IMG/VR virus record: IMGVR_UViG_3300042261_000534
Span: 1 to 20,398 of that record
DNA: 20,398 nt
Direction: 5' to 3' (one strand)
Source of the DNA: a virus
The position numbers and the translations under genes were made by a program. Of this stretch, positions 5,097 to 20,398 are shown one piece after another. The stretch's first letter is position 1; every line of letters starts with the position of its first letter. Below the pieces are notes generated by a model. The model searched no databases. It was not told the DNA's origin and was given only the letters and a program-made list of their open reading frames with translations.

Positions 5097-5765
5097 ATGA
5101 AAAATATAGCTTTAACGATTATAATTATCATTATGTTAGGTTGTTCAACAACAAAAACAATGACACAAGATATTTATCAAAAAAAAGATTATTCATATTT
5201 ACATATAGATACGACTGATAATAATTTATATTATGAACAAGAATATAACTATTTAACAGTAAAACCTTATTGGGCTAATTACTATTTAACAGTAAAACCT
5301 TATTGGGCTAATTACTATTTAACACCTACATATTTATATTACTATTGGGATTATAATCAATATTATTATCCTTATCCATATTTTTATTATAATTTTAATT
5401 GGGATTGGAATCATCATAGACACCATAATCACTGGAATAATTATTACTATGGACGCAGATATTCACAAAACTTTCAAAAAAGACATATAAATTATACACC
5501 ATATGAATATCGTCAACCAAGACGTTCAAATGAATATCACAAACCATATTACAAACCACAACCAAAACAACCACGTTATCAACAACCAAGACCACGTGTA
5601 AATCCACAACCACGACAACGTATAAATCCACAACCACGTGTAAATCCACAACCACGACAACGTATAAATCCACAACCACGTGTAAATCCACAACCACGAC
5701 AACGTATAAATCCACAACATTATAACTCACAGACACACTATAACTCACAAAAAAGAATTAGATAA
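5097..5765 (+). CDS. Tyr/Trp/His-rich lipoprotein with tandem repeats
   Basis: The 222-aa product begins with a lipoprotein signal (hydrophobic residues 4-14, lipobox MLGC, lipidated Cys16), so it should be anchored in a host membrane. Residues about 52-73 are a duplicated 11-residue unit YLTVKPYWANY. Residues about 75-130 are extremely rich in Tyr, Trp, His and Asn. The C-terminal third is Pro/Gln/Arg-rich, with three copies of a 14-residue RVNPQPRQRINPQP-type unit encoded by perfect 42-bp DNA repeats. The chain is probably extended or disordered and strongly basic towards the end. I do not recognise a family. It is the first gene of a rightward block with another lipoprotein and the ligase. 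A surface or wall-binding role is conceivable but unproven. Confidence 0.75.
   Translation: MKNIALTIIIIIMLGCSTTKTMTQDIYQKKDYSYLHIDTTDNNLYYEQEYNYLTVKPYWANYYLTVKPYWANYYLTPTYLYYYWDYNQYYYPYPYFYYNFNWDWNHHRHHNHWNNYYYGRRYSQNFQKRHINYTPYEYRQPRRSNEYHKPYYKPQPKQPRYQQPRPRVNPQPRQRINPQPRVNPQPRQRINPQPRVNPQPRQRINPQHYNSQTHYNSQKRIR
5251..5316 (+). repeat. Perfect 33-bp tandem duplication
   Basis: Bases 5251-5283 are repeated exactly at 5284-5316, and the start of a third copy (ATTTAACA) follows at 5317-5324. The duplication keeps the reading frame and adds one 11-residue YLTVKPYWANY unit. Complete identity suggests a recent event. Confidence 0.95.
5592..5717 (+). repeat. Three perfect 42-bp tandem repeats
   Basis: Copies lie at 5592-5633, 5634-5675 and 5676-5717 and are identical base for base. 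Each encodes 14 in-frame residues of the Pro/Gln/Arg-rich tail, and each is itself built from two similar half units (CCACGTGTAAATCCACAA and CCACGACAACGTATAAAT...). Copy number could change by slippage without breaking the frame. Confidence 0.95.
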
Positions 5766-5788
5766 TTTTTTTATTTGAAAATTTTTAT

Positions 5789-5796
5789 TATATTTG
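5789..5796 (+). promoter_or_regulatory. Bacteroidota-type -7 promoter element
   Basis: TATATTTG is a perfect match to the TAnnTTTG element used by the primary sigma factor of Bacteroidota. It ends 17 bases before the ATG at 5814, which suits a short leader. The upstream -33 position carries only a T run rather than a clean TTTG; a TTTG at 5774-5777 is too close. It suggests that host polymerase transcribes the small lipoprotein and probably the ligase. Confidence 0.5.
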
Positions 5797-5813
5797 CACT
5801 TTAATTTTAAACA

Positions 5814-6173
5814 ATGAAAAAAATCTTATTTTTATTTTTATTATCATTTTTAATGTTTTCATGTGCTGAACAAAAAACATTTACAAATTCCAAAAACGAA
5901 GAATTTATTGCTAAACCTTATGGTTGGGCAAACGAAGAATCACAAAAAATAGATACGGTCGTTTATGAAATAAATGCTGGTAATGCCATATTATCAATTT
6001 TATTTTCAGAAACCATTATAGCACCATTATATTTAACTGGGTGGGAAATATATGAACCAGTTCGTTTAAAAAACAAAAATGAAACATTTGATAGCAATTA
6101 TATCAATTTATTTTTTTTAATACTAATTGGATTTATTATTATTATTTTTATATTCAAATACACAAAATCTTAA
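5814..6173 (+). CDS. Small lipoprotein with C-terminal membrane segment; possible unimolecular spanin
   Basis: This 119-aa protein has a short lipoprotein signal with lipobox MFSC (lipidated Cys17) and, at the other end, a hydrophobic helix at about residues 98-114 followed by the basic tail KYTKS. That is the architecture of u-spanins such as T1 gp11 (131 aa), which link outer and inner membranes and fuse them in the last step of lysis. A caution is the middle segment at about 57-76 (ILSILFSETIIAPLYLTGW), which is also quite hydrophobic; the motif KPYGWANE followed by FSET-PLYLTGWE looks like a conserved small phage protein whose role I cannot name. It lies 48 bases after the first lipoprotein, behind a host-like -7 box, and 10 bases before the ligase start, so it is probably co-transcribed with the ligase. 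Confidence 0.75.
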   Translation: MKKILFLFLLSFLMFSCAEQKTFTNSKNEEFIAKPYGWANEESQKIDTVVYEINAGNAILSILFSETIIAPLYLTGWEIYEPVRLKNKNETFDSNYINLFFLILIGFIIIIFIFKYTKS

Positions 6174-6183
6174 TAATTATTAT

Positions 6184-8130
6184 ATGAATAGAATAACAGA
6201 ATTAGAATTACTATTAGATGAATGGAACAGTGTTTACCGTTTCGAAGGTCGTTCAATAGTGCCAGATAGTGTTTATGATAAACACATGGATGAATTAGCC
6301 GAATTAGATCCAGATAATAAAAGACTAACGAAAGTTGGCGAAACACCACCAAATGATGAAAGAAAAGAAAATCTTCCAATGATAATGGCTTCTATGAATA
6401 AAGTAAAATCATTCGAAGAATTAAAAGCTTGGATGCTGAAAAAAAGCATACCTCTAAACACAATTCTTTGTATTACACCAAAATATGATGCGCTTTCTGG
6501 ATTATATGATGTGAAAAATGAAAAAGGTTGGACAAGAGGTGATGGTGTAATCGGTCAAAATTCAGAACCACATTTCAAAGATATTTTAGAAAAATATCCA
6601 AAGGATAAATTAGAATCTTTTTTACAAGCATATAAACATGCACCGTTTGTATATACGACAGGTGAAGTAATTATACCCAAAGAAACATTCCTTAAAAAAC
6701 ATTCTAAAATAGCATTAGGCGAGGATGGTTTTGATAATGGTCGTAATCGTGTAGGGGGTCTTTTTAATAAATATAAAAAAGAAAACAAACAACACTTAAA
6801 TGATATAGTGTATATGCGATACGGTTTACATTGTGGTGTAGATTTAGATAAAAGCAAGCAACTTGATATTTTAAATGATTATTTTAATAATCCTGAAGTT
6901 CCATACAAATTACATACAATAGATGAATTATCAACAGAATATTTAGCCGATCTTTTTAAAGAATGGTCAAAAACATTCGAAATTGATGGTCTTATTATAG
7001 AGGTGAATGATGCTAAGTTACGAAATAGCATTAAACCGGAAAAATCAACAAAAGATAATCCGGAGGTTATGAATCCTAGTTATGCACGTGCGTATAAAGC
7101 AGGTTTTGAAGAAGTGAAAGAAACAACTGTTTTAAATTTAAAACTTGAAATTTCAAAACTTGGTTTTTTAATCCCAGTCGCAGAAGTAGAACCTACAATG
7201 TTGGATGGCGCAGAAGTGACTAATGTTACTTGTAATAACGCAAAAATGGTATATGATTTTGGTATAGGACAAGGTGCTATTTTAAAAATATGTCGTAGTG
7301 GCATGGTTATCCCATATATCATTGATGTTGTAAAAAAATCCGAAGAGTATTTTCTGTTTCCAACTAATTGTCCTTGTTGTAATACAACATTAATATGGAA
7401 TGACACTAATACACATTTAATGTGTACAAATGAAAACTGCACTGAACGTAAAATTAAACAAATAACATCTTTTTTTGACATACTTGATGTTAAAGGTGTT
7501 CGTGAAACTACATTTAGGCAATTATATAATTCTGGCTATGATACAATCCAAAAAATACTTGCTATGTCAATTGATGATTTAAAAACAATTGATAGGATGG
7601 GAGAAACCAAAGCATCTAATACTTATGATTCTATTCATTCAAAAATAGATGATATCACATTATCTAAACTTCAACATGCTTCAGGTTTTTTTTCTGATCA
7701 AAATACCGGATTTAGTCTTGGAAGTAAAAAGCTTCTTCTATTAGAACATTTTACTCAAAAACCATCTGTTTCAGATGTTAAAGAAATTGATGGCTTTTCA
7801 GATTCATCTGCATTATTATATTGTAGTAATTATGATCGTTTTTTTGAATGGGCGAAAACTCTTTCTGTATCAATAAAAAAAGAAAAAGAAACTATCATCA
7901 CAAGTGATAATTGCATAGGTAAAACATTTATATTCACTGGTATAAGACGAAAGGATCTCGAAGAAATCATCAAGCAACAAGGCGGAAAGGTGGTAGATTC
8001 GATTAGTAGAAATTGTACTCATTTAATCATGAAAACGATTGGAAGTGGATCAAATAAAGAAAAAAAGGCACTTGAATATAACATGATCATATGGACTGTC
8101 GAACAACTTGAAAATTTCTTAAATAAATAA
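6184..8130 (+). CDS. ligA: NAD+-dependent DNA ligase
   Basis: The 648-aa enzyme seals nicks in DNA using NAD+, through a ligase-AMP intermediate. Domain order matches LigA. Residues 1-75 are the NAD-binding domain Ia (DSVYDKHMDELAELDP). The nucleotidyltransferase domain carries adenylated Lys100 in KYDA, TRGDG at 117-121, Glu161 in TGEVIIP, and motif V ARAYKAGF. The OB fold is at about 315-390 (LIPVAEVEP). A Zn finger has Cys396, Cys399, Cys414 and Cys419. Helix-hairpin-helix repeats span about 425-540, and a BRCT domain spans about 577-648. Two odd points: motif I is KYDA rather than KxDG, and motif IV is DGLIIEVN, with Glu273 where bacterial LigA has Lys. I chose the ATG at 6184 because an ATG 57 bases upstream (6127) overlaps the previous gene and adds non-family residues. 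Likely used in phage DNA replication or repair. Confidence 0.96.
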   Translation: MNRITELELLLDEWNSVYRFEGRSIVPDSVYDKHMDELAELDPDNKRLTKVGETPPNDERKENLPMIMASMNKVKSFEELKAWMLKKSIPLNTILCITPKYDALSGLYDVKNEKGWTRGDGVIGQNSEPHFKDILEKYPKDKLESFLQAYKHAPFVYTTGEVIIPKETFLKKHSKIALGEDGFDNGRNRVGGLFNKYKKENKQHLNDIVYMRYGLHCGVDLDKSKQLDILNDYFNNPEVPYKLHTIDELSTEYLADLFKEWSKTFEIDGLIIEVNDAKLRNSIKPEKSTKDNPEVMNPSYARAYKAGFEEVKETTVLNLKLEISKLGFLIPVAEVEPTMLDGAEVTNVTCNNAKMVYDFGIGQGAILKICRSGMVIPYIIDVVKKSEEYFLFPTNCPCCNTTLIWNDTNTHLMCTNENCTERKIKQITSFFDILDVKGVRETTFRQLYNSGYDTIQKILAMSIDDLKTIDRMGETKASNTYDSIHSKIDDITLSKLQHASGFFSDQNTGFSLGSKKLLLLEHFTQKPSVSDVKEIDGFSDSSALLYCSNYDRFFEWAKTLSVSIKKEKETIITSDNCIGKTFIFTGIRRKDLEEIIKQQGGKVVDSISRNCTHLIMKTIGSGSNKEKKALEYNMIIWTVEQLENFLNK

Positions 8131-8155
8131 ATTATTAGCACAAAAATTTTAAATT

Positions 8156-8701
8156 ATGCTATCAATCATATCTTTACTTGCGTTAACTTTTTTTGGAGTA
8201 ATTAGTTATTTTATTAACTATTTTACTGGAATCCATGAATTTCTTACAATTAGTATTATATTTTTTACCATAGACGCACTAAGTTTTTTTATATTGTTTT
8301 TTATAAATAGCAATAGTTGGGAATATGAAATTAACCGTTTAAACGAAATTCATAAGTATAAAAAATTACTAATGTTAAAAAAAGAACAATTTGATAATGT
8401 AAAAATTGAATGGGTGAAATATTTAACAATAGAATATCCAAATTTAGAAAAAGATATTTTCAATAAAATGAGTTTAGATGAAAAAAATCAACTAACATCA
8501 TATTTTGTTAAATATCCACAATTATCATCTAGTTCGATGTTTAATACGTTAATTCAAGGAATTTCAAATATGTATAATAATATTTATGAATTAGAAAGTT
8601 ACATTGCAGATGAAGAAGAAAAATTGAAAAATTCAATAGTTAATAAATGGCATATTTTTCATTCATCATTATGCAAAGATTACATCAATTCAATTAAATA
8701 A
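8156..8701 (+). CDS. Two-helix membrane protein with cytoplasmic or periplasmic helical domain, unknown
   Basis: The 181-aa product starts with two membrane helices, at about residues 3-23 and 29-50, joined by a very short loop (a hairpin). A charged, mostly helical region follows, with a likely coiled coil at about 55-85 (EINRLNEIHKYKKLLMLKKE) and a second acidic helix at about 145-170. No catalytic motif is visible and I do not recognise the family. It starts 25 bases after the ligase stop, with no promoter apparent, so it probably belongs to the same transcript, which ends at the hairpin 8722-8773. With the possible spanin upstream, a role at the host membrane (lysis or exclusion) is conceivable, but there is no direct evidence. 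Confidence 0.7.
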   Translation: MLSIISLLALTFFGVISYFINYFTGIHEFLTISIIFFTIDALSFFILFFINSNSWEYEINRLNEIHKYKKLLMLKKEQFDNVKIEWVKYLTIEYPNLEKDIFNKMSLDEKNQLTSYFVKYPQLSSSSMFNTLIQGISNMYNNIYELESYIADEEEKLKNSIVNKWHIFHSSLCKDYINSIK

Positions 8702-8721
8702 AGTTTATTTTTCATTTTGGT

Positions 8722-8773
8722 AAAGTTATCCCACTTAAAAGAATATTATTTTTTTAAGTGGTGGTAACTTTTT
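8722..8773 (+). terminator. Large hairpin after the ligase/membrane-protein block
   Basis: The outer stem AAAGTTA (8722-8728) pairs with TAACTTT (8765-8771), and the inner stem CCACTTAAAA (8731-8740) pairs with TTTTAAGTGG (8752-8761), with a small internal bulge and an 11-base loop. The right arm ends in a T run. The position, 20 bases after the stop at 8701, fits a terminator. The bulged two-part stem also leaves room for a processed or regulatory RNA element. Confidence 0.7.
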
Positions 8774-8853
8774 GTTATATAAGTATATATAAATCGGCAT
8801 GTTTTTTGATTAATAATCTTATTAAGATTGAATAAAAACAACGAAAATTATAT

Positions 8854-11091
8854 ATGAAAAAAATTATATTTATAATAGCATTATTTGCTATTATTTTAAG
8901 TTCTTGTAAAAAAGATACAACACAGCCAACAAATAATGAATTTAATTGGCAAACGACTAAAACAATTAATGTGAATATTGGTGCTAATATTACTGAAAGT
9001 ATTGGTAATTTAGTGAAAATAAAAATTTATAATAATAATCCAATTAACAACGGTGTTTTAATAGCATCAGGTTCTGCTGGTTATAATTTACCATTTGAAA
9101 CAAAAATTAAGATACCAACAGATTTAAAACAAATCTACATTGAGTGTATAGGTTTTAAAAGAACTTATCAAATTGATTCTGTAGCAGTAACAAATAACAT
9201 AAATTATGTATTTAATGAGCCAACTAATGGTTTTAAAAATATTTCTATAACAGAACCTGATTGTAGTGGTGATAACACAATAACAGGAAACATCCCTGTA
9301 ACAATAACAGGTGGTAAAACTTATGTTGTTAGTGGACTTTATACTGGAAAAATAACATTCGAACATTGGAATGGTGGTGGCACTTTAAAAGTTTGCGGTT
9401 ATGCTAATTTAAATAAAGAAATCACTTTGGGTAATAATTGTAATATTATTGTTACTGGTAATGGTAAATTTTCATCAAATAATATTGTTAATTTAAATGG
9501 TAATTCTACATTTATATCATATCCAAATACTGAAACAGTTATATCAAAGTTAAGATCAAATTCAGTAAATTCATCTATAGTTAATTATTCACCTATTTTT
9601 ATATGTGGTGGACAAACTAGTGAAGATTTTATTTTAAATGGAAAATTAGAAAATAACGGAACTATTCAATTTGTAAAAAAATTCACAACAACAAGTGGTA
9701 GCGATGTCGTTAATAACGGTGAAATTACTATTACTGATAATTTTCAAGTAAATGGAAATAACGCAACAAAATTTATTAATAATGGTAAAATAAAAGTTTA
9801 TCATGGGTTTATACAATTTAACGCTCCAGTTGAAAATAATTGTAGTATAATTGGTAATAATGAGATGAATAATAATTATTGTCAAATTAATTCAAATTAT
9901 ACATCTAATGGCGGTTTGTTAAAATTCGGAAAAAATACAGGTACTATTTATTTTAATGGTAATGGTCAGATTAAATTAAATAACAAATCTATGATAAGCT
10001 CATATGATTTAGAAGTTAATAATAATATTTATGGTAATGGTAGTTTAAATTCAATTTCAATAATAAATACTATTAAAATCAATAAATCTAAAATCAGTGG
10101 TTCTATTGAAACAGCTAATAATTTAGGTACATTAAGTAACGGCGATTTATCTAATTTTATCAACGGTGCTACTTTTGTGAGAATCACAAACATAACTAAC
10201 TACATACCAATCTCTGATTGCAATTCGATTGGAATTGGTACACTAAATATAATAGATATTGATGGTGATGGTGTAGCTGATAATTTAGACGAATATCCAA
10301 CTGATCCAAAAAGAGCATATAATACATATTATCCCCCAAATATAAATTCATGGAATACTTTGACATTTGAAGATTTATGGCCTTCAAAGGGGGATTATGA
10401 TTTTAATGATCAAGTTATCCTTTATAAATATAAAGTGGTAAGTAACGCACAAAATAAAATAGTTGATATTTTAGGAAAATATAAAGTAATAGCAGTAGGT
10501 GGGAGTATAAATAATGGTTTTGGTGTTCAATTTGATAATATAACACCAAATCAAATAGAATCAGTTAGTGGTTATGTAAATGAATTAGAAAATGGTCAAA
10601 CAAATGCGGTAGTAGTATTATGGTATGATGTAAATAATGTAATTCATAGAGTAGGTGGTTCAATGTTTAATACAATACCAGAGAACCCAATAGGCACATC
10701 TGATACGATAGATATTAAAATACATCTTAATGTACCACTTTCAATAAATACTGTTGGATTGCCACCTTATAATGCTTTCATTATGCGTACAAATGATAGA
10801 GGACATGAAATACACTTGATAGATAAAAAACCAACAAATTTAGCAAATGTCAATTTGTTTGGAACTGTTGATGACGCATCGATACCATCACAAGGTAAAT
10901 ATTATAGAACTAAAGAAAATTTATATCCTTGGGGTTTAGATATACCATATGTTTTTGAATACCCAATTGAAAAAGTGGAAATTATAGAAGCACATTTAAA
11001 ATTTTCAACGTGGGTCGAATCAAACGGCATTCAATATCCAGATTGGTATAAGAACAAAATAGGTTATAGAGATGAAAGTAAAATATTTTAA
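8854..11091 (+). CDS. LruC-domain surface lipoprotein
   Basis: The 745-aa product has a typical Bacteroidota lipoprotein signal (lipobox LSSC, lipidated Cys18, then KKDTTQP). Residues about 140-460 form a long Asn/Gly/Thr-rich beta-repeat region, probably solenoid-like. Residues about 468-480 carry the calcium-binding loop DIDGDGVADNLDEYPTDP of the thrombospondin type 3 kind. The C-terminal 240 residues match the LruC domain, with its hallmark FEDLWPSKGDYDFNDQV followed by the beta-rich tail (DUF4842 region). The family consists mostly of bacterial surface lipoproteins of unknown role, so finding it between phage genes is unusual. It has its own terminator and lies between two hairpins, so it is an independent unit. 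A cargo gene displayed on the infected cell, for example for exclusion or adhesion, is one possible reading. A virion role is less likely because of the lipid anchor. Confidence 0.9.
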   Translation: MKKIIFIIALFAIILSSCKKDTTQPTNNEFNWQTTKTINVNIGANITESIGNLVKIKIYNNNPINNGVLIASGSAGYNLPFETKIKIPTDLKQIYIECIGFKRTYQIDSVAVTNNINYVFNEPTNGFKNISITEPDCSGDNTITGNIPVTITGGKTYVVSGLYTGKITFEHWNGGGTLKVCGYANLNKEITLGNNCNIIVTGNGKFSSNNIVNLNGNSTFISYPNTETVISKLRSNSVNSSIVNYSPIFICGGQTSEDFILNGKLENNGTIQFVKKFTTTSGSDVVNNGEITITDNFQVNGNNATKFINNGKIKVYHGFIQFNAPVENNCSIIGNNEMNNNYCQINSNYTSNGGLLKFGKNTGTIYFNGNGQIKLNNKSMISSYDLEVNNNIYGNGSLNSISIINTIKINKSKISGSIETANNLGTLSNGDLSNFINGATFVRITNITNYIPISDCNSIGIGTLNIIDIDGDGVADNLDEYPTDPKRAYNTYYPPNINSWNTLTFEDLWPSKGDYDFNDQVILYKYKVVSNAQNKIVDILGKYKVIAVGGSINNGFGVQFDNITPNQIESVSGYVNELENGQTNAVVVLWYDVNNVIHRVGGSMFNTIPENPIGTSDTIDIKIHLNVPLSINTVGLPPYNAFIMRTNDRGHEIHLIDKKPTNLANVNLFGTVDDASIPSQGKYYRTKENLYPWGLDIPYVFEYPIEKVEIIEAHLKFSTWVESNGIQYPDWYKNKIGYRDESKIF

Positions 11092-11098
11092 AACAAAG

Positions 11099-11127
11099 AA
11101 TCCAGAATCATTCTGGATTTTTTTTTT
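11099..11127 (+). terminator. Rho-independent terminator of the LruC lipoprotein gene
   Basis: A perfect 9-bp stem, AATCCAGAA (11099-11107) / TTCTGGATT (11111-11119), with a TCA loop runs into a T tract (11118-11127). It begins 8 bases after the stop codon. Confidence 0.95.
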
Positions 11128-11147
11128 AATTTTAAGCGTATGTTATT

Positions 11148-11159
11148 TTAATATATAAA
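11148..11159 (+). promoter_or_regulatory. Putative late-type promoter box before the 707-aa gene
   Basis: TTAATATATAAA lies 20 bases before the ATG at 11180, directly after the LruC terminator, so the downstream gene needs a start signal here. It is almost identical to the box before the sheath gene. Confidence 0.45.
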
Positions 11160-11179
11160 GAAAAATAAATTATAATCAA

Positions 11180-13303
11180 ATGGCATCGACTTCTACAAAA
11201 AAATTAGTTAATCTAAATCCAAATATATTATTAGAATATGAATATAATAGTACACACATTAGTGAGAATTATAGTATTTGGTCAGATTTAAGTAAATCAA
11301 CAAGAAATTTCGTAAGTTCAACAAATTATAATGACATTAATCATAATTTATTTCAAATAGATTCTGTATTAAAAAAATACAGTAAAATAAATACAGAAAA
11401 ATTTAATTTTCTTAAAATACAAAATTATTTTTCTGCACCAGTGATGTACGACAAAATAAGATTATACTTACCAAACAATTATAATTTTGATAATTATTAT
11501 GGATTTATGATGAAAATTTATAGTTATGATTATTATAACAAAAAACAATACATGTTAAGTAATTATTTTTATGATAAAACTGACATAAAAATAATCAATG
11601 GCACAACTGAATATGCAGAATATTTAATTAATTTAGGGCAACCTTTTACATATAGCGGAAAAGAATGGAATAAATATATTGAATTTTACGTACCATCATT
11701 ACAAGAAATTAGCAACCAAAGAGATATAAACGTAAATGTAAATAAAGTAATAACTGATTCTATTAATGATAATTTAACTGCTGGTATTGGTTTATCTTTA
11801 AATAATCCTATTTTTATTGAATTTTCATTTATAGTAAGTAAACAAAACACATTTGGTACTGATTATTATTTTTTAGGCGATACATATAAATTATCTTTAT
11901 CTAAACAGCCGGAATACCAGACATTAGGCGTAACAATAAAAGAGTCTACCGACTGGGACTTTTTTGAAATATACGGCACGTATGATAATTCCAATGAGAA
12001 TCTCGATAATTTTGTAAATGATTTAGAAAATAAAGGTAAAAGAATAAATATAGAGTACATTGTTACTTTATATGAAGAAAATTTAATTAGTGGATTTCCG
12101 ACTACATTTTTAGTAACTGAAAATTTCTCACAAAAAATAGAATATAGACCGATTATAAAATATTCGAATACTACAGCAGCAATTGATATTGAAATGAAAA
12201 TTTTAGATTTAATAGACAATAGCTCTATTAGTCGATTCGCATCTATCGGTTTAACAAATAATTTATTAAAATATGGTAAAAAATTAGCTAAATTAGACGT
12301 ATCTACAATAACAAAACCTAAAATTTATAATTATAAAGCTGATAAAATAATGAATTTTGGAACGACTACACAAAATAAAACTAATTTAAATGTTGTAAAA
12401 GTACCATACCCCATTTTAATCAACAATTATAAAATATTAGCGAGTAATTATACTAATAATCAAAACGAATATAAATCAATAGGAACATTAAATATAATTT
12501 TAACGCCTTTTGATAATGTAATTAAATTTCAAATAGCTAAACAAGATGCTGCTAATTTACCAATAACACCATATAATTTAAGTGAAATGTTATTAAATAG
12601 CAAATTAAATTTAATATTTAAATCAGATTCAAAAACAATAGAAAAAGATATTTATTTTCAAAGCGGTGATAATAATTTTGAGAATGGAGTTGTTGTATTT
12701 AAAATAAACCAAGAAGACATACCTATATTAAAACAAATGATAAAAGAAAAATCTGATAATTTCTATATTATATTAAATGCAAATAAAACAAAATCTTTAT
12801 TATATTCTGGTAAATTTAAAATATATGAAAATGTTAAATTTGTAGACATACAACAAACATCAATAGGTACTATGGCTACACTAGGCACAGTAACTGGTTC
12901 TACAATAACTACGGCAACTGGTTATACAAATAATATAGAAAATACTCCACCACCACAATTTGACGCAAACGGTATCCCTGTAATAAATCCTAATTCACGT
13001 GGACAAATTGATTATTATCGAAATTTAGTTGTTTATTGTAAACAAAATCTAACAACTGCACAATTAAATGAAGTGCGTTTATTATTAAGTTCTGTCGGTA
13101 CATTAACATATTATTTAAATAGTGTTTTTGTTATGAGTCGGGTTAAAGTAGAAGACATAGAAATATTAAAAAGAAATAACATGATCAGTGTAGTATATCA
13201 AATGCCGTTAGATTATGGTTGGACTAAAAAAACAAATTCGTATAATATAGATATAATCAATAAAACATCTACTGAAATTATAACAAATAACAATATTAGT
13301 TAA
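11180..13303 (+). CDS. Probable virion structural protein, unknown
   Basis: This 707-aa protein has no signal peptide or membrane helix and is rich in Tyr, Asn, Ile and Lys, as are other structural proteins here. Residues about 1-570 look like successive beta-rich domains (for example PVMYDKIRLYLPNNY and NKYIEFYVPSLQEI). A Thr/Gly/Pro-rich linker follows at about 570-610 (GTVTGSTITTATGY, then NTPPPQFD). A compact C-terminal domain at about 615-690 has an alternating alpha/beta look (YYRNLVVYCKQNLTTAQLNE). I do not recognise a family. The promoter-like box, the lack of an enzyme motif and the position facing the fibre genes suggest a neck, baseplate or fibre-attachment component, but this is inference. 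Its 3' end overlaps that of the convergent fibre gene by 8 bases. Confidence 0.7.
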   Translation: MASTSTKKLVNLNPNILLEYEYNSTHISENYSIWSDLSKSTRNFVSSTNYNDINHNLFQIDSVLKKYSKINTEKFNFLKIQNYFSAPVMYDKIRLYLPNNYNFDNYYGFMMKIYSYDYYNKKQYMLSNYFYDKTDIKIINGTTEYAEYLINLGQPFTYSGKEWNKYIEFYVPSLQEISNQRDINVNVNKVITDSINDNLTAGIGLSLNNPIFIEFSFIVSKQNTFGTDYYFLGDTYKLSLSKQPEYQTLGVTIKESTDWDFFEIYGTYDNSNENLDNFVNDLENKGKRINIEYIVTLYEENLISGFPTTFLVTENFSQKIEYRPIIKYSNTTAAIDIEMKILDLIDNSSISRFASIGLTNNLLKYGKKLAKLDVSTITKPKIYNYKADKIMNFGTTTQNKTNLNVVKVPYPILINNYKILASNYTNNQNEYKSIGTLNIILTPFDNVIKFQIAKQDAANLPITPYNLSEMLLNSKLNLIFKSDSKTIEKDIYFQSGDNNFENGVVVFKINQEDIPILKQMIKEKSDNFYIILNANKTKSLLYSGKFKIYENVKFVDIQQTSIGTMATLGTVTGSTITTATGYTNNIENTPPPQFDANGIPVINPNSRGQIDYYRNLVVYCKQNLTTAQLNEVRLLLSSVGTLTYYLNSVFVMSRVKVEDIEILKRNNMISVVYQMPLDYGWTKKTNSYNIDIINKTSTEIITNNNIS

Positions 13304-14369
13304 CATAACCGTATAATTTTAACACATCACTCGGTGATGGCGGTGGTCTTAAAACTATTAATGTGGTTGTTGATATAATATAATCATCACCATATGTTTG
13401 TAATTGTCCATTCAAATAAAACATATTTAAAGTTGTTGTTAACCCACTAGATAGTGTATAAAAATAATTATTGTTATTTTGTAAACCACTTAAATTAATT
13501 TCAGTCAATCTGTCATTATTGGTTACGGTTGAGCCAAAAACAAATGAAATAAAATAATCTGTATTATTAATTAAATTACCATTTCCTGCTAAACAAGTAA
13601 ATCCAGATATTAAATTAACTGTTATAAACGGTTTAGTATTTGATACTGATTCAAAATTATAAATACCAAAAATAGATGCGTTGTTTTTTTCTTCTATTTT
13701 TAACAACCCAGTAACCCACATATTCAACCAATTATCTAATGATTGACCATCCAAATCTGTTGTATTAATTACTAGTTTGTTAACTAAAGCCAAATTAAGA
13801 TTACCAACATAAGAATCATTACCAGCCCAAAACGTACCCATCGGTGGCAATTGTGGTGTAATAGGTATTAATTGACATGGTAAATTTGGTATTGTTGTTG
13901 TAAATTTCCAAACTCTTGTCGCACCACCATAACCACCACTATAACCAGATGTACCAGAACTACCATAAAACGAACCATCAACACCAGAACTACCACTTGT
14001 TCCAGTATTACCAGAACTACCAGAACTACCTATAGCAGACGTGCCAGATGTAGCTGATGAACCAGACGTGCCATCACCTGAACTTCCTGATGTACCGAAT
14101 GTACCTGAAATGCCACTTTTACCTGATGTACCAGATGTACCAAACCCACTCGTACCCGACGTGCCTGATGATGTACTACCTGTTATATTATATGTTATAC
14201 CAGTAAAATTATTTATAGTTATATACGTATTGCCACTTAATATATAAGTTATATTACCGTATTCGTCTTTTTCCCATAAACCAATACTATCTTGTCCAAG
14301 ATATATATGTCCTGCATCTGGATTGTTAATTATGTTTGGATCTATACGTTCTATTTTAATAAAACTCAT
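13296..14369 (-). CDS. Collagen-like tail fibre/adhesin paralogue D (357 aa)
   Basis: The N-terminal anchor (residues 1-62, GHIYLGQDSIGLWEKDEYGN) is shared with the three neighbouring fibres and is probably where the fibre attaches to the virion. Residues 64-145 form a Gly-Thr/Ser-Ser repeat stalk like a bacterial collagen trimer. The GGYGGATR module (146-152) begins a beta domain with the W-K-I-E-E-x-N-x-x-x-x-F-G-I-Y pattern (NMWVTGLLKIEE, then IFGIYNF) that also recurs in the paralogues. The C-terminal end is unique here and contains MFYLNGQLQTYGDDYIIS, a motif common at the ends of phage adhesins that often contacts receptors or closes the trimer. It is the last gene of the leftward fibre series, 11 bases after fibre C, and is probably co-transcribed with it. 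Confidence 0.87.
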   Translation of the reverse strand: MSFIKIERIDPNIINNPDAGHIYLGQDSIGLWEKDEYGNITYILSGNTYITINNFTGITYNITGSTSSGTSGTSGFGTSGTSGKSGISGTFGTSGSSGDGTSGSSATSGTSAIGSSGSSGNTGTSGSSGVDGSFYGSSGTSGYSGGYGGATRVWKFTTTIPNLPCQLIPITPQLPPMGTFWAGNDSYVGNLNLALVNKLVINTTDLDGQSLDNWLNMWVTGLLKIEEKNNASIFGIYNFESVSNTKPFITVNLISGFTCLAGNGNLINNTDYFISFVFGSTVTNNDRLTEINLSGLQNNNNYFYTLSSGLTTTLNMFYLNGQLQTYGDDYIISTTTLIVLRPPPSPSDVLKLYGYVN

Positions 14370-14380
14370 ATCATATTATT

Positions 14381-15865
14381 TTATTTTATAAATTCACTAT
14401 TTGATCCGAACGAATCAACAGTATAAATTACACCAAATGTGAGTATATTCGTAGCTATCGAATATAAATCATTGCCAGTAAATTGCAAACTATTATTATA
14501 TTTATCTCTTATTATTCTAATTTGCAACACATTAGATATAGTCGTTCCACTAAATATAGGCAAACTTGATGAATATGAAACTTGATGCAATGTTGTTCCT
14601 GTTGTATAAGTATATAATAAATTATTACATTTTAAATAATTCCATGTATTTTCTTTTTCATTATCGATGCGCTGATATCTATATTGTAATAAAAAATTAG
14701 GATTATTATTTTCTGTTTGAAACCAATGTAAATTCATTTTAATACTCGAATTTAATTCTTTATCATGATCTATTTGTATATTTTTAGTTAAATATTGATA
14801 TATATCTGCTGTTGTGTCGAAATCAATAGTAGTTTCATTTAAATTCATAGTTAAGCTTGTACCACTTATATTAAAAGATAAAGCATCAAATGATTGTTCT
14901 TTAAATTTACCTGTTGTAATATTAGATAAATTGCCCCATTGAGTTTGTGTTAAATGAAAATATTCACCTGCTGTCCCACCACTTAATCCTAAAAGTTCAT
15001 TATGGTTATCGTTACCGGATGTCCCAGATGTTCCAGATGAACCATTAGATTCAAAAATATATGATATTAAATATTTTTTTTCAGGCACTAATGTACCATT
15101 TCCAGATAATATAGTAAAACCACTTAATTGATAAGTATCCAAACTTATTTTAGTTATATTGGTTATTTTATATAAACCATAGTTTTGTAAATTTAATTCA
15201 TCTTCAATTTTTACAAAACCATAACTCCACGAATCAATCCAACCATCTAAATCTTGATTATCAAAATCACGTTGATTTATTCTTATATAATTAAGCAACA
15301 CCAAATCATAATTTGAAAATGTAGTGCTATACGCATTAAAATAATTTTGTGGCGGTGTAGTATTTGTCGTAAACGACCATTTTCTAGTTGCGCCACCATA
15401 TCCGCCATTTATACCTGATGTACCAGAACTACCATTACCATCTACACCAGATGTAGCAGAACTTCCACTTGTAGCAGACGTACCAGAACTACCAAAAGCT
15501 GAACTACCAGATGTACCTGATGTTGACGATGAACCTGATGTACCAAAACCAGATGTACCTGATGTGCCGTTACCAGAACTTCCCGATGTACCAAATGTTC
15601 CAGAAACTCCACTTTTTCCTGATGTACCCGATGTACCAAATCCAGATGTACCTGATGTTCCTGATGATGTACTTCCGGTTACTAAATATGTTGTGCCTGT
15701 AATACTATTTATAGTTATATATGTATTCCCGCTTAATATATAATTTATTAAACCGTTTTCATCTTTTTGCCATAAACCATAATTATCTTGACCAAGATAA
15801 ATATGACCATGATCAGGATTAGATATTATATTCGGATCTATTTTTTGAATTTTTATAAAACTCAT
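14381..15865 (-). CDS. Collagen-like tail fibre/adhesin paralogue C (494 aa)
   Basis: It has the same anchor (1-62, MSFIKIQKIDPNIISNPDHG) and a Gly-Ser/Thr stalk (about 64-153) that includes extra GFGTSGSS units. The GGYGGATR module (154-161) leads the common beta domain. A second short stalk (NGSSGTSGTSG, about 273-283) follows, and then LLGLSGGTAGEYFHLTQTQW, a sequence style seen in many phage tail fibres. The last 200 residues are a distinct beta-rich domain not shared with the neighbours, presumably the receptor-binding tip. No chaperone or peptidase domain is evident. Spacing is 48 bases from fibre B, with a TATATA box in the gap, and 11 bases to fibre D. Confidence 0.87.
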   Translation of the reverse strand: MSFIKIQKIDPNIISNPDHGHIYLGQDNYGLWQKDENGLINYILSGNTYITINSITGTTYLVTGSTSSGTSGTSGFGTSGTSGKSGVSGTFGTSGSSGNGTSGTSGFGTSGSSSTSGTSGSSAFGSSGTSATSGSSATSGVDGNGSSGTSGINGGYGGATRKWSFTTNTTPPQNYFNAYSTTFSNYDLVLLNYIRINQRDFDNQDLDGWIDSWSYGFVKIEDELNLQNYGLYKITNITKISLDTYQLSGFTILSGNGTLVPEKKYLISYIFESNGSSGTSGTSGNDNHNELLGLSGGTAGEYFHLTQTQWGNLSNITTGKFKEQSFDALSFNISGTSLTMNLNETTIDFDTTADIYQYLTKNIQIDHDKELNSSIKMNLHWFQTENNNPNFLLQYRYQRIDNEKENTWNYLKCNNLLYTYTTGTTLHQVSYSSSLPIFSGTTISNVLQIRIIRDKYNNSLQFTGNDLYSIATNILTFGVIYTVDSFGSNSEFIK

Positions 15866-15875
15866 GTAGAATTTT

Positions 15876-15891
15876 TATTTATATATATTAA
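15876..15891 (-). promoter_or_regulatory. TATAAATA-containing box before fibre C
   Basis: On the minus strand this reads TTAATATATATAAATA, combining the TTAATATATA element found before other virion genes with an exact TATAAATA (15883-15876). It ends 10 bases before the ATG, so the leader would be very short if the TATAAATA part is the -10 element. Confidence 0.4.
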
Positions 15892-15913
15892 AAAAATTCA
15901 ACTAATAAAAACC

Positions 15914-18067
15914 TCATATAGTTATAGTGTGTTTATTTGTCCACACTGTAGGACTTAATGAAGTACAATAATCTATATAAAAACCACTATTATCGCTCCA
16001 CTCACGCCAATCACCAATAGAATCAACACCCATAATATTTCTATGTAATATAGCTTTACCAATTGGAATTTGTAAATTCTCATCAAAATCACTCATCCAT
16101 AACAAATTACTTGCTTTAATTTTTTTAATATTATTGTTGTTGTCGATACCACTTGAACTACTTAACAACATATAATCATTGGAACTTACCGTTGTTTTTT
16201 CTATAACATTTTGTATTGTATTTGTTCTTACACCTATATAATTTGTTTCTTTAACCCAAGCCGATTCATCTGATGTGAATGTTGTATAGCTTCTACTAAC
16301 GCTATTTGGAGCTGTCGAGCCTGTTATAACAAAAGAAGATGCTGTATCGTTCAAATCTGTTGTACTTTTATTTAATTGATGTTGTGTAACAAGAATTAAT
16401 AATTTTTTATTATGATCGCCACCAACAGGTAAAGTTGTTGTTCCTATTCTAAACCCATTATATGTAAATTTTATACTATTATTAGAACTATTAACATAAC
16501 AATTATTGAATTTTAAAGATACTGTGGTATATTCATGTATAGAACTTATTTGAATATTATTAATTGAACCTAACCCACCAACCACATTATAAAACGAACA
16601 GTTTTCAAATTTTATTTTAGATCTAGCACCAGAAGTTCCTGTTAAATTAAAAATTGTTTTATTTGATTGTGTATCCATTCGAATGTCACTTGGATTATCC
16701 CATATACTATTGAAAAATATATCAGTAAAAGTTGGATTACCGTCAGTAATAGTAACCGTGTAACCAGTTAATGTTTCTAAGGTTTCACCTGATGCAAAAG
16801 ACCAATATGCAGAAAACCCATAAAAATTTATATTAGTTAAATCCCATGTGACACTATCATTCATTAAAATATAACCATTTAAATATATATTTCCACCTTC
16901 ATATGTACTATTTATAAGTATAACAGCATCCTTCACTTCTTGCCATGATGTGCAATAAAAATTTGGTATTGTAGTTCCACTCATCCAATGTGCTAAACCA
17001 TTGGCATCTGAAATCAACATTTTTCCATTTCCTTGATTACCATCAACATATTTAAAATCACCCACGACGTGTAATGTTGCATCTGGTGTTAGCGTACCTA
17101 TACCAATATTATTATCAAACTCATATATTGGTGTCGTTGTGTTAACGATAGTTGTACCGTTTGTGCCGAATTTAGCAATATAATTTTGTGTACCACTCAA
17201 ATTAGAGTTACCAGATGAACCCGACGTTCCTGATTCTGTTCGTACAAAAGAAATTAAAAATTCACCGTTTGATACTACACCATTAGCATTCAATACTGTA
17301 ATATCACTAATATGATAAAACGTACCCCCTATTTTTGTAATCGTTGAACCTGTGTGTATATAATAAACACCAACAATTGATAAGTTTCTCCTATCTTCTA
17401 TTTTTAAAATACCAACACCCCATGTAGATAACCAACCATCCATCATATCATTATCAGCATCTACACGATGCAATCTTAAATAATTAAATTGATCTAAACT
17501 ATTACCAATTAAAGATAAACACATTTCACCAGTTGCAGGTGTTGTATTTGATAAATTTAATAACCATCGTCTAGTTGCACCACCATAGCCGCCATCAATT
17601 CCACTACTACCAGATGTACCGTCTAATCCAATTCCGCTACTCCCAGAACTACCAGATTCGCCTGATGACGCTGATGTTCCTGATGATCCTGAAATTGAAG
17701 ATGTTCCTGAAGTCGAAGATGTTCCTGATGTACCTGATACACCCGATGTCGAAGATGTTCCTGATGTACCATCACCCGAACTTCCAGATGTACCAACTGT
17801 ACCTGAAATACCACTTTTTCCTGATGTACCAGATGTACCAAACCCACTCGTACCCGACGTACCTGATGATGTACTACCTGTTATATTATATGTTATACCA
17901 GTAAAATTATTTATAGTTATATGTGTATTTCCACTTAATATATAAGTTATATTACCAAATTCATCTTTCTCCCATAAACCGATGCCATCTTGCCCAAGAT
18001 ATATATGTCCAGCATCTGGATTGTTAATTATATTTGGGTCTATACGTTCTATTTTGATAAAACTCAT
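15914..18067 (-). CDS. Collagen-like tail fibre paralogue B with beta-helix-like domain (717 aa)
   Basis: This is the largest of the four paralogues. It has the anchor (1-62), the Gly-Ser/Thr stalk (about 64-158) and GGYGGATRRW (159-168) with its beta domain. A second short stalk (SGTSGSSGNSNLSGT, about 277-291) comes next, then the IGIGTLTPDATLHVVG repeat known from many fibre C-terminal regions. Residues about 370-560 have the look of a parallel beta-helix (pectin-lyase-like), with short stacked strands such as KFENCSFYNV and LKFNNCYVNSS. That fold can bind or cut surface polysaccharide, but I see no clear catalytic set. The final 37 residues (VDSIGDWREW to TVWTNKHTITI) are shared with fibre A. 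A TATATA box lies in the 31-base gap upstream. Confidence 0.87.
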   Translation of the reverse strand: MSFIKIERIDPNIINNPDAGHIYLGQDGIGLWEKDEFGNITYILSGNTHITINNFTGITYNITGSTSSGTSGTSGFGTSGTSGKSGISGTVGTSGSSGDGTSGTSSTSGVSGTSGTSSTSGTSSISGSSGTSASSGESGSSGSSGIGLDGTSGSSGIDGGYGGATRRWLLNLSNTTPATGEMCLSLIGNSLDQFNYLRLHRVDADNDMMDGWLSTWGVGILKIEDRRNLSIVGVYYIHTGSTITKIGGTFYHISDITVLNANGVVSNGEFLISFVRTESGTSGSSGNSNLSGTQNYIAKFGTNGTTIVNTTTPIYEFDNNIGIGTLTPDATLHVVGDFKYVDGNQGNGKMLISDANGLAHWMSGTTIPNFYCTSWQEVKDAVILINSTYEGGNIYLNGYILMNDSVTWDLTNINFYGFSAYWSFASGETLETLTGYTVTITDGNPTFTDIFFNSIWDNPSDIRMDTQSNKTIFNLTGTSGARSKIKFENCSFYNVVGGLGSINNIQISSIHEYTTVSLKFNNCYVNSSNNSIKFTYNGFRIGTTTLPVGGDHNKKLLILVTQHQLNKSTTDLNDTASSFVITGSTAPNSVSRSYTTFTSDESAWVKETNYIGVRTNTIQNVIEKTTVSSNDYMLLSSSSGIDNNNNIKKIKASNLLWMSDFDENLQIPIGKAILHRNIMGVDSIGDWREWSDNSGFYIDYCTSLSPTVWTNKHTITI

Positions 18068-18080
18068 TTAAAAGTTTTAT

Positions 18081-18093
18081 CTTTATATATAAA
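18081..18093 (-). promoter_or_regulatory. Putative promoter box before fibre B
   Basis: The minus strand reads TTTATATATAAAG and ends 13 bases before the ATG at 18067, inside the 31-base gap after fibre A. It resembles the boxes before the sheath and 707-aa genes. Confidence 0.35.
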
Positions 18094-18098
18094 AAAAA

Positions 18099-19097
18099 TT
18101 AAATTGTTATTGTATGTTTATTAACCCACACAGTAGGTGTTATCGAAGAACAGTAATCTATATAAAAACCCAAATTATTGCTAATTTCTCTCCAATCACC
18201 AACAGTATCCACATTTAAAACTTGTCTATGATAAATTGCATTACCTCTAATTATTTGCATATTACCGTTCAAACTCAATGTACCTGAATCATAATTACTA
18301 TTTGATATAAAAGAAATATAATAATCTTTATTTTCGATTAAACTACCATTCGATGCTAAACACATTAAATTAGTTATTTTTATAGTATTACCTATAATTA
18401 TAGGTGTGGTGTTTATTTTATATAAACCAAAATTAGAAAAATCTTCACGATTTTCTATTTTTAATATACCTATATCCCAAGTAACTAACCAATAATATAA
18501 ATTTTGTTCATCAAAATCAATTTTATTAAGTAAAATATATTCTAATACACCAAGATTTGAATTTAAATATGTTTCACTCCATCCAAAAAAATAATTTGCT
18601 TCTGGTATAGTGTTACCAGAAAAAATCCATCGTCTTGTCGATGCACCATAACCACCACTCCATCCACTTGTTGCACTTGATCCTGATGAACCAAAAAAAT
18701 TACCATCTTTTCCAGAAGTACCTGAACTACCCGATTCACCAGATGTAGATGATGAACCTGAACTACCAGATGTCCCAAAACCACTTGTGCCTGATGTTCC
18801 TAACGCTGAACTACCAGATGTTCCAAATGTACCTGATATTCCACTTTTCCCAGATGTACCCGATGTACCAAACCCACTTGTGCCTGATGTACCCGATGAT
18901 GTACTTCCAGTCGTATTATATGTTATACCAGTTAAATTATTTATAGTTATATATGTGTTTCCACTTAATATATAAGTTATATTACCATATTCGTCTTTTT
19001 CCCATAAACCAATACTATCTTGACCCAGATATATATGTCCTATATCCGGATTATTAATTATATTAGGATCTATTTTTTCTATTTTAATAAAACTCAT
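18099..19097 (-). CDS. Collagen-like tail fibre/adhesin paralogue A (332 aa)
   Basis: This is the first fibre of the series. It has the anchor (1-62, MSFIKIEKIDPNIINNPDIG), the stalk (about 64-147), and GGYGASTRRW (148-157) with the shared beta domain (WDIGILKIENREDFSNFGLY). A short C-terminal module (VDTVGDWREIS to PTVWVNKHTITI) is homologous to the end of fibre B. The middle adhesin region of fibre B is absent, so A is effectively a short form with the same two ends. The gap to the upstream glycosyltransferase-methyltransferase is 51 bases and contains TATATA boxes (19102-19111 and 19134-19141). Confidence 0.87.
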   Translation of the reverse strand: MSFIKIEKIDPNIINNPDIGHIYLGQDSIGLWEKDEYGNITYILSGNTYITINNLTGITYNTTGSTSSGTSGTSGFGTSGTSGKSGISGTFGTSGSSALGTSGTSGFGTSGSSGSSSTSGESGSSGTSGKDGNFFGSSGSSATSGWSGGYGASTRRWIFSGNTIPEANYFFGWSETYLNSNLGVLEYILLNKIDFDEQNLYYWLVTWDIGILKIENREDFSNFGLYKINTTPIIIGNTIKITNLMCLASNGSLIENKDYYISFISNSNYDSGTLSLNGNMQIIRGNAIYHRQVLNVDTVGDWREISNNLGFYIDYCSSITPTVWVNKHTITI

Positions 19098-19148: not shown

Positions 19149-20398
19149 TTATGGTTTATTAGATGTAATTAATAACGATTCTTGTAAATGTGAATTAATT
19201 CGTGAAATATTAATATTAACAAAATTTGTCACTTCTAATAATTTAAAAATTCTTTTTTCAGTAAATCCGGTTTTATGGTAATCGCCAATTTTAGTTTGTG
19301 CGCCAAATATTCTTTTTAAATAAAAATCCCATTTATTTGGATCATCTTCGTTTGATTTCAACCATTCTGATACGCAATATTCTAAATCAGGAATATTTAT
19401 TACTAATTTGCCATTTTTAATTAAAACCCTATTTATTTCTTGTAAAACACCCAACACTTCATGTTCAGCAAAATGTTCTAATACATGCGATATATGGATT
19501 TCTTCAATAGTTTCATTTTCATAATCTAATTTTCTAATATCCATTATAACATCAGCTGGCTCATTTATATCTATATTTATGAAATCGTCTAATAATTGAT
19601 CACCACAACCTAAATTTAATTTTTTATGTTCTTTGAATTTTTCTTTATTTATATGTGGTAAACGATTTATCCATCTTTCATCAATAAATTTTTTATCATC
19701 TAATGTCAATCTGCCATTTAAAGGTATATTAGTATGATAATTCCTTAAATCTATATCAGGATAAGCTGTATATTTTCCATTAGCTAAATCCATATGCAAA
19801 CATTGAACATCAGTATCAACAAGAAGTCTAAATCCCATTTTATGCCACCTATGTACAAAAAAATTATCTTCGCCTATAAACGGTATTCCTTCTATTTCAT
19901 TGGCTATACAACAAAACGGTATTTCAGGATCAGAATCCTTTAATTTTTTTAAAAGTGATACTGGTATTAAAGCCGCATCTAAACCAGTTTGCCACGCTTC
20001 ATAAACTTTACCTGGGTCAACATTAGCAGGGTAAATCATATTATTATCTTTAACCATTATCATTGGTACTGATAATTTTATATAATACACACCAACTACC
20101 ATAGCGTCTGGATTTTTTTGTGCTGTTTCATGTAATTTTCTAAAACCATCAAAAGGTATTACTGTATCTTCACCAACAAAAAAAAGATATTTAGCCCCGC
20201 TATTTATAACTTCTTCTATTAAATAATTTCTAGCTACATCCACTGCTTCACCTCCAATATTTATAAAACCGTGTGAAAATGCTGAAAAATCTACATGTAA
20301 CCCTATATGACCATCTAATTTTTGAGCTGGGGTTTCATCTAAATTTCTACGAGGTTGAGCTATAACAACATAAGGTTTAATTTCATTTGAATCTTCTA
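19149..20398 (-). CDS. Glycosyltransferase-methyltransferase fusion, 5' end beyond the window
   Basis: The frame stays open to base 20398. The GTG at 20243 is an internal Val codon, since the codons before it (including KPYVVIAQPRRNLDETPAQK) clearly belong to the protein. Numbering from that GTG, the N-terminal part looks like a GT-A glycosyltransferase, with YLFFVGEDTVIP (20-30; GED in the DxD position) and FIGEDNFFVHRWHKMGF (122-138) followed by VDTDVQCLH. The C-terminal part is a class I SAM-dependent methyltransferase, with LNLGCG (209-214), an acidic strand-end NIDIN, HVLEHF (253-258) and NGKLVINIPDLE. The enzyme would transfer a sugar and methylate a sugar or nearby group. It sits directly upstream of the four fibres in the same direction. 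Targets may be the Ser/Thr-rich fibre stalks or a glycan; neither is shown by the sequence. Confidence 0.85.
   Translation of the reverse strand, partial: EDSNEIKPYVVIAQPRRNLDETPAQKLDGHIGLHVDFSAFSHGFINIGGEAVDVARNYLIEEVINSGAKYLFFVGEDTVIPFDGFRKLHETAQKNPDAMVVGVYYIKLSVPMIMVKDNNMIYPANVDPGKVYEAWQTGLDAALIPVSLLKKLKDSDPEIPFCCIANEIEGIPFIGEDNFFVHRWHKMGFRLLVDTDVQCLHMDLANGKYTAYPDIDLRNYHTNIPLNGRLTLDDKKFIDERWINRLPHINKEKFKEHKKLNLGCGDQLLDDFINIDINEPADVIMDIRKLDYENETIEEIHISHVLEHFAEHEVLGVLQEINRVLIKNGKLVINIPDLEYCVSEWLKSNEDDPNKWDFYLKRIFGAQTKIGDYHKTGFTEKRIFKLLEVTNFVNINISRINSHLQESLLITSNKP

Follow-up and report, generated by a model that had tools for sequence, protein, structure and literature searches.

Why a phage should encode a glycosyltransferase and a methyltransferase on one polypeptide, immediately ahead of its fibre genes, is the question raised by IMG/VR fragment IMGVR_UViG_3300042261_000534, a single virus stretch of 20,398 bp that was analysed at its full length and is referred to here as the window. 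The original prediction for this locus was that the phage glycosylates its own fibres. Phage fibres set host range and are the first parts of the virion to meet host proteases, antibodies and receptors, and the question is testable because the fibre and enzyme genes are adjacent and can be co-expressed. The enzyme pair recurs in many other phages, next to fibre genes of a similar kind, and the virus therefore probably sugar-coats its own fibres.

Origin of the window

The phage from which the window derives is a relative of the 735-kb uncultured megaphage LR756501, since three of its proteins are similar to those of LR756501. Its tail sheath, encoded at 930-4763, shares 60% identity with the LR756501 sheath over its full length, the two tail tubes are 52% identical, and a predicted conserved phage protein of 707 aa (11180..13303, + strand) shares 58.6% identity with its LR756501 homologue. 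The last of these is probably a baseplate protein and serves as the locus marker in relatives. As of 2020, no phage genome larger than one of 735 kb had been described (PMC7162821).

The fusion gene and its two halves

The glycosyltransferase-methyltransferase (GT-MT) fusion gene (19149..20396, - strand) encodes 415 aa within the window, and its 5' end lies beyond the window edge. Its frame contains an internal GTG start at 20243; because initiation there would leave the GT fold without its opening strand, the true start is placed outside the window. That a GT-A-like domain and a SAM methyltransferase share a single polypeptide, as originally predicted, is confirmed by PHROG GT and MT families that match the open frame, by profile HMMs and by AlphaFold2 models of both folds. 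The GT and MT HMMs were made from independent phage loci in which the two are separate genes, with the window protein left out. The halves were modelled separately; a joint GT+MT alignment on the full fusion wrongly paired the C-terminal halves of the GTs with the MT and was set aside.

The GT half spans residues 9-204 (19785..20372, - strand). It scores 47.5 bits against the GT HMM (E=4e-13), compared with a highest score of 6.9 bits among 5000 shuffled sequences, and is only about 25% identical to the GTs of the phage cassette described below. With Pfam the fusion protein matched no GT family, the methyltransferase families alone being above noise, and PHROG assigns residues 45-203 to its family 34859 ('glycosyltransferase'; E=1e-5). 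The AlphaFold2 model of this half (pLDDT 73.8, pTM 0.76) has a GT-A fold, and its top PDB match is STIV A197 (2c0n; Foldseek E=1.3e-10; VIA Z 18.7, rmsd 2.4 over 172 residues), which is covered over almost its full length at 19% identity. By Z the lead of A197 is small, because the runner-up, LH3, reaches 17.8; many GT-A enzymes lie above Z 13. The structural matches are GTs of proteins, collagen, teichoic acid or glycans. A collagen GT function was not adopted from the LH3 and COLGALT1 matches, GT-A folds being broadly alike, and the match to LH3 spans its residues 293-536, which we take to be an accessory domain.

Both GED motifs named in the original prediction are present. In the first (residues 75-77; 20166..20174, - strand) D77 occupies the putative DXD position, and in the second (residues 175-177; 19866..19874, - strand) D177 occupies that of the putative catalytic base, while a C-terminal histidine, H201 (19794..19796, - strand), is a likely metal or phosphate ligand in the GT-A fold. 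All three residues are invariant across 39 sequences. As modelled, the GT half is a GT-A fold in which the DXD, catalytic-base and His positions are kept, and it is predicted to be an enzyme. No membrane segment was found in the fusion protein, and the GT-A half appears to be soluble, as in cytosolic protein glycosylation.

The class I SAM-dependent methyltransferase half covers residues 256-415 (19152..19631, - strand). It matches PF08241 (Methyltransf_11) at 27.6 bits against a cut-off of 21.2 (E=4.6e-6) and the MT HMM at 62 bits (E=1.8e-17; best of 5000 shuffles, 10.1), and PHROG methyltransferase families match fusion residues 251-340. The two predicted motifs, the SAM-binding LNLGCG (residues 260-265; 19602..19619, - strand) and HVLEHF (residues 304-309; 19470..19487, - strand), are found in the sequence and the alignment, and the G, D, H, E and H of the SAM site (LGCG) and of SHxxEH are invariant across 32 MT sequences. 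The AlphaFold2 model has a class I methyltransferase fold, whose structural matches include no standout. A hit of the fusion to the NCBIfam mycofactocin oligosaccharide methyltransferase was below threshold and was set aside.

Four Ser/Thr-rich fibre genes

Four fibre genes follow the fusion gene on the same strand (-), in agreement with the predicted layout. Fibre D (18099..19097; 332 aa, S+T 25.0%; PHROG tail fiber, E=9.8e-6), the proposed acceptor, begins 51 bp downstream of the GT-MT stop, and its Gly-Ser/Thr stalk (18645..18908, - strand) has by composition 31 Ser and 13 Thr in 88 residues. The other three, recognized by frame and composition, are fibre C (15914..18067; 717 aa, S+T 25.7%; stalk 17582-17878), fibre B (14381..15865; 494 aa, S+T 26.3%; stalk 15395-15676) and fibre A (13296..14369; 357 aa, S+T 24.9%; stalk 13926-14180). 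All four share a 64-residue N-terminus, the anchor, followed by a stalk of 85-99 residues with 42-53 Ser+Thr and 28-31 Gly arranged in interrupted Gly-X-X triplets without proline; they also have a conserved domain with a 'GILKIE'-type motif. Their S+T content of 24.9-26.3% compares with 6.7-18.2% in the remaining genes of the window.

The 51-bp gap contains a TAnnTTTG box, a motif common throughout the window, and the GT-MT and fibre genes are only possibly co-transcribed. Between 13200 and 20398 sigma-70 promoter-like sites show no excess over chance, and terminator-like sites are few. TATATATAAA-like boxes stand ahead of the tube, locus-marker and fibre genes (200-219, 11148-11159, 15874-15891 and 18082-18095); the window has 21 matches to them against 7.3 expected, and they are possibly late promoters.

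A recurrent GT-MT cassette in environmental phages

As a lone query the fusion protein found no IMG/VR relatives and no phage match at 1e-5. A looser phage search recovered the GT and MT as separate, adjacent genes in the structural region after the capsid genes of spring-water phages, and a GT behind the head gene of mycobacteriophage Thibault, where a GT, a kinase, an MT and further GTs come after the capsid gene. Distant GT relatives also lie at or soon after the capsid genes of phages ctKR88, ctyzp037 and ctTUS972, as in Thibault. At IMG/VR loci L020 and L022, retrieved with an alignment that includes two of the loose-search phages, the GT and then the MT stand right behind fibre or LamG-like genes.

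A GT-only alignment (A7) yielded 254 confirmed IMG/VR relatives, of which the best 80 were analysed. An MT lies no more than 900 bp downstream of the GT on the same strand in 75 of these best 80 loci, and further down in the other five. In the same best 80 of 254, the gene directly upstream of the GT has a median S+T content of 26.2%, whereas the remaining + strand genes at these loci have 14.4% (p=4e-23 by Mann-Whitney, a value that overstates the evidence because the loci are interrelated), and it is the gene richest in S+T of its locus in 43 of 67 cases against 11.0 expected. A second IMG/VR set of 80 loci, for which the window GT was included in the query and which overlaps the first in part, gives similar figures: an MT within 900 bp in 74 of 80, an upstream gene with 26.5% S+T versus 13.5%, and the richest gene upstream of the GT in 43 of 69 loci against 9.8 expected. 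Among 56 upstream neighbours each named PHROG is virion structural (tail fibre, minor tail, collagen-like or Hoc-like), and many neighbours match no family. This statistic ties the GT to fibres and does not identify the fibres as acceptors, because fibres are generally Ser/Thr-rich.

By sequence, the two halves of the window enzyme belong to one recurrent GT + MT cassette. The window has the neighbour typical of that cassette, since fibre D is 25% S+T and only 51 bp away. It differs in that its GT and MT are fused and lie upstream of the fibre; none of the loci in either set of 80 has a fused GT-MT. Ser/Thr-rich, fibre-type neighbours were found at most of the loci examined. Homologues mainly inside polysaccharide loci, the finding named beforehand as contrary to fibre glycosylation, were not seen for this GT family.

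Related loci in Patescibacteria

A single genome scan returned 24 loci (L142-L165), nearly all of them in Patescibacteria bins. At most of them the GT is again accompanied by an MT no more than about 2 kb away and preceded by a gene rich in Ser and Thr, whose S+T content is 22-30% at nearly all loci. Around two of the Patescibacteria loci, on contigs of 1.16 and 0.65 Mb, inspection by eye alone showed no obvious phage genes. The GT-MT in Patescibacteria is possibly a surface-fibre glycosylation system of those bacteria. In two of the bins the pair is located at 7992-9351 (L159) and 7983-9305 (L160).

The same fibre locus in megaphage relatives

The fibre locus was traced in relatives of the window phage by two anchors, the 11180-13303 protein and the fibre N-terminus. 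In LR756501 and at loci L019 and L060, a 1140-1144-aa GT4 protein and a GT4+GT9 protein are encoded on the strand opposite to the orthologous fibre. At L061 the orthologous fibre adjoins a gene (5434-9951, - strand) for a protein of 1505 aa with GT4 near its N-terminus and a C-terminal FkbM methyltransferase (PF05050, E=4.5e-16); the 1140-1144-aa proteins of L007 and L060 are otherwise similar but lack this last domain. Judged from its domains, the L061 protein is a second GT + MT fusion at the equivalent locus, composed of families unrelated to those of the window. At L059 a GT25 gene (12686-13345) lies shortly behind genes for collagen-like fibres and for a Gp23-type capsid protein; GT25 is a family of LPS enzymes, with collagen galactosyltransferases in the same CAZy family.

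The window fusion itself was not found in the other megaphage records searched; the only traces were weak relatives, a GT in LR756501 and an MT in LR756500. The fibre array of LR756501 at 400-423 kb (L012, L058) has no adjoining GT; L012 encodes fibre-like proteins of 2830 and 3487 aa (10174-18666 and 19509-29972) with a matching N-terminal anchor. LR756501 also has a sugar cluster of about 40 kb (298000-337500; L247, L248) with many GTs and MTs, whose gene names come partly from reading the sequences. This cluster served as a control: no Ser/Thr-rich gene was found in it, and since it lies apart and lacks such a gene, the GTs beside the fibres do not belong to a polysaccharide locus. Elsewhere in the same genome a GT2-family gene (78099-79553; L250) lies immediately behind the major capsid gene. 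A radical SAM gene is found between the locus marker and the fibre at L015 (11802-12767), and a similar one in LR756501 (L007, 35111-36064) adjoins a phrog_1574 GT-A gene.

Target of the enzyme

We favour, with moderate confidence, the explanation that the fusion enzyme modifies the phage's own fibres. In its favour are the folds and conserved residues, the adjacency of the fibres, the recurrence of the cassette, the other GTs that relatives have at this locus (including one with a fused MT), the structural match to the viral GT STIV A197 and the lack of a membrane segment. Counting against it are the low identity of the window GT to the cassette GTs, the absence of the fused form from the cassette loci and from the other megaphage records searched, and the LR756501 fibre array that has no adjoining GT. 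A cytosolic bifunctional enzyme would act on the fibres before assembly. Its GT-A half would take a sugar from a nucleotide-sugar donor and attach it to Ser/Thr residues in the Gly-Ser/Thr stalks of the fibres next to it or, alternatively, lengthen a sugar that is already on the stalk, and the MT half would then methylate the added sugar, probably as a cap. The benefit to the phage might be stability, protease resistance or the masking of receptor-binding parts. We infer the fibre as acceptor, the O-linkage, the donor and the order of the reactions. The predicted glycosylation of the phage's own fibres is partly supported, by the conserved GT + MT pair next to Ser/Thr-rich genes and by the other GTs of the locus. 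More tentatively, and somewhat short of the confidence we place in the window enzyme, a fibre-GT-MT cassette of many environmental tailed phages and Patescibacteria may make methyl-capped O-glycans on Ser/Thr-rich fibres, being fused in this megaphage and replaced in relatives by GT4-FkbM, GT4/GT9 or GT25.

The enzyme might instead alter the LPS, O-antigen or capsule of the host and thereby block superinfection or change the receptor, its proximity to the fibres reflecting a shared host-range region. This is the published reading both of the GTs that pelagimyophages carry in their tail-fibre hypervariable region (PMC7029224) and of GT/MT clusters in jumbo cyanophages (PMC7824862), and LR756501 does possess a genuine sugar gene cluster. 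That cluster, however, sits elsewhere and without a fibre, the GT-MT pair stands directly behind a fibre-type gene in most of the 80 contigs (the best 80 of 254), and the fusion enzyme has no membrane segment. Nor were sugar-nucleotide, polymerase, flippase or multiple-GT neighbours seen in the 20-kb window (Pfam and PHROG, up to 20398). A virion target is favoured over host glycans because the window is without other sugar genes, the pairing with fibre-type genes is tight and the LR756501 cluster is separate; host-surface modification is thus less favoured than fibre glycosylation, and we consider it unlikely.

If the target is in the virion, the acceptor could be a protein other than the fibres, such as the major capsid, tail tube or sheath protein, with the gene just lying in the late region. 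The glycosylated proteins of mycobacteriophages are the capsid and tail tube (PMC12619734, PMC12363180), and GTs are found near capsid genes both among the distant relatives (Thibault, ctKR88, ctyzp037 and ctTUS972) and in LR756501. Yet this lineage also puts GTs at its fibre locus, and the close cassette family adjoins Ser/Thr-rich fibre-type genes rather than capsid genes, which makes such an acceptor improbable. Since some phage GTs act on DNA (PMC9614988), glycosylation and methylation of hypermodified DNA bases was weighed as well. The gene is nevertheless located among tail genes, no base-modification gene was seen in the window and the GT-half model resembles enzymes of proteins and glycans, so that a role on DNA seems very improbable.

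Comparison with known systems

The addition of a methylated O-glycan by a phage to its own fibres was proposed as new, and in that form the claim of novelty is not supported. In mycobacteriophages both capsid and tail tube are glycosylated (Freeman et al. 2023, as reported in PMC12619734 and PMC12363180), GT and MT genes have been taken as a sign of virion glycosylation in Rhodococcus phages (PMC13313380), and the chlorovirus protein PBCV-1 A064R already joins two GT domains to an MT domain, which has been demonstrated to 2-O-methylate the terminal rhamnose on the capsid glycan (PMC9614988). What would be new is that the target is a fibre, that the two enzymes are fused and that the cassette is so widespread.

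A064R resembles the window enzyme in having GT and SAM methyltransferase on one viral polypeptide, and it makes a methylated glycan end on the virus's own structural protein. The likeness is one of domain make-up, and A064R differs in belonging to a eukaryotic virus, in its three domains, in its capsid N-glycan and in its proven function, whereas the window enzyme is known from sequence and models. The fusion part within the window has one GT domain (Pfam/PHROG), its N-terminus being cut off, and A064R has two before the MT. Mycobacteriophages (Che8 gp110, Corndog gp38, Myrna) are tailed phages with GT genes, and with MT genes too in related actinophages, that modify their own virion. Their acceptors are the C-termini of capsid and tail tube and the enzymes are separate genes; no fibre target is reported in the papers cited.

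STIV A197 is essential and a candidate coat-protein glycosylation enzyme (PMC10551542), and the STIV coat protein is glycosylated (PMC10551542, PMC4187194). Like the GT half of the window enzyme, of which it is the best structural match, it is a small soluble viral GT-A, but it comes from an archaeal virus, lacks an MT domain, has an unproven acceptor and is only 19% identical. On Bacillus spores the collagen-like stalk of BclA is O-glycosylated on Thr with an oligosaccharide ending in an O-methylated sugar (PMC6222408). The Gly-X-X stalk and the O-methylated sugar end may be regarded as analogous, although BclA is a bacterial spore protein modified by other enzymes. The GT-MT pair of phages and Patescibacteria (L062-L165) is homologous in both halves and matches in partnership and type of neighbour; it differs in being two separate genes that normally lie downstream of the fibre. 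In Ser-rich repeat adhesin systems the GtfA/GtfB GT genes, together with SecA2, adjoin the adhesin genes. Those systems differ in using GT-B enzymes and accessory secretion, neither of which was found in the window.

If the cassette is read correctly, fibre glycosylation would be common in phages and nearly unstudied. If many phages sugar-coat their fibres, host-range work and the expression of fibres in standard strains overlook a modification, and the 'auxiliary' GTs of metagenomes that are now taken as host LPS modifiers would need to be reread.

Other genes of the window

Three further genes of the window are worth recording. The gene at 8854-11091, among the tail genes, encodes a lipoprotein-like product with a DUF4842 domain (E=1.9e-58). 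Between the sheath and the fibre locus, 6127-8130 encodes a protein of 667 aa that by eye looks like an NAD-dependent DNA ligase, and a similar gene is present at L016/L017. The gene at 5097-5765 contains 42-bp DNA repeats and encodes a small lipoprotein-like protein rich in Tyr, Asn and Arg, look-alikes of which occupy the equivalent position in L007, L015, L016, L019 and L061.
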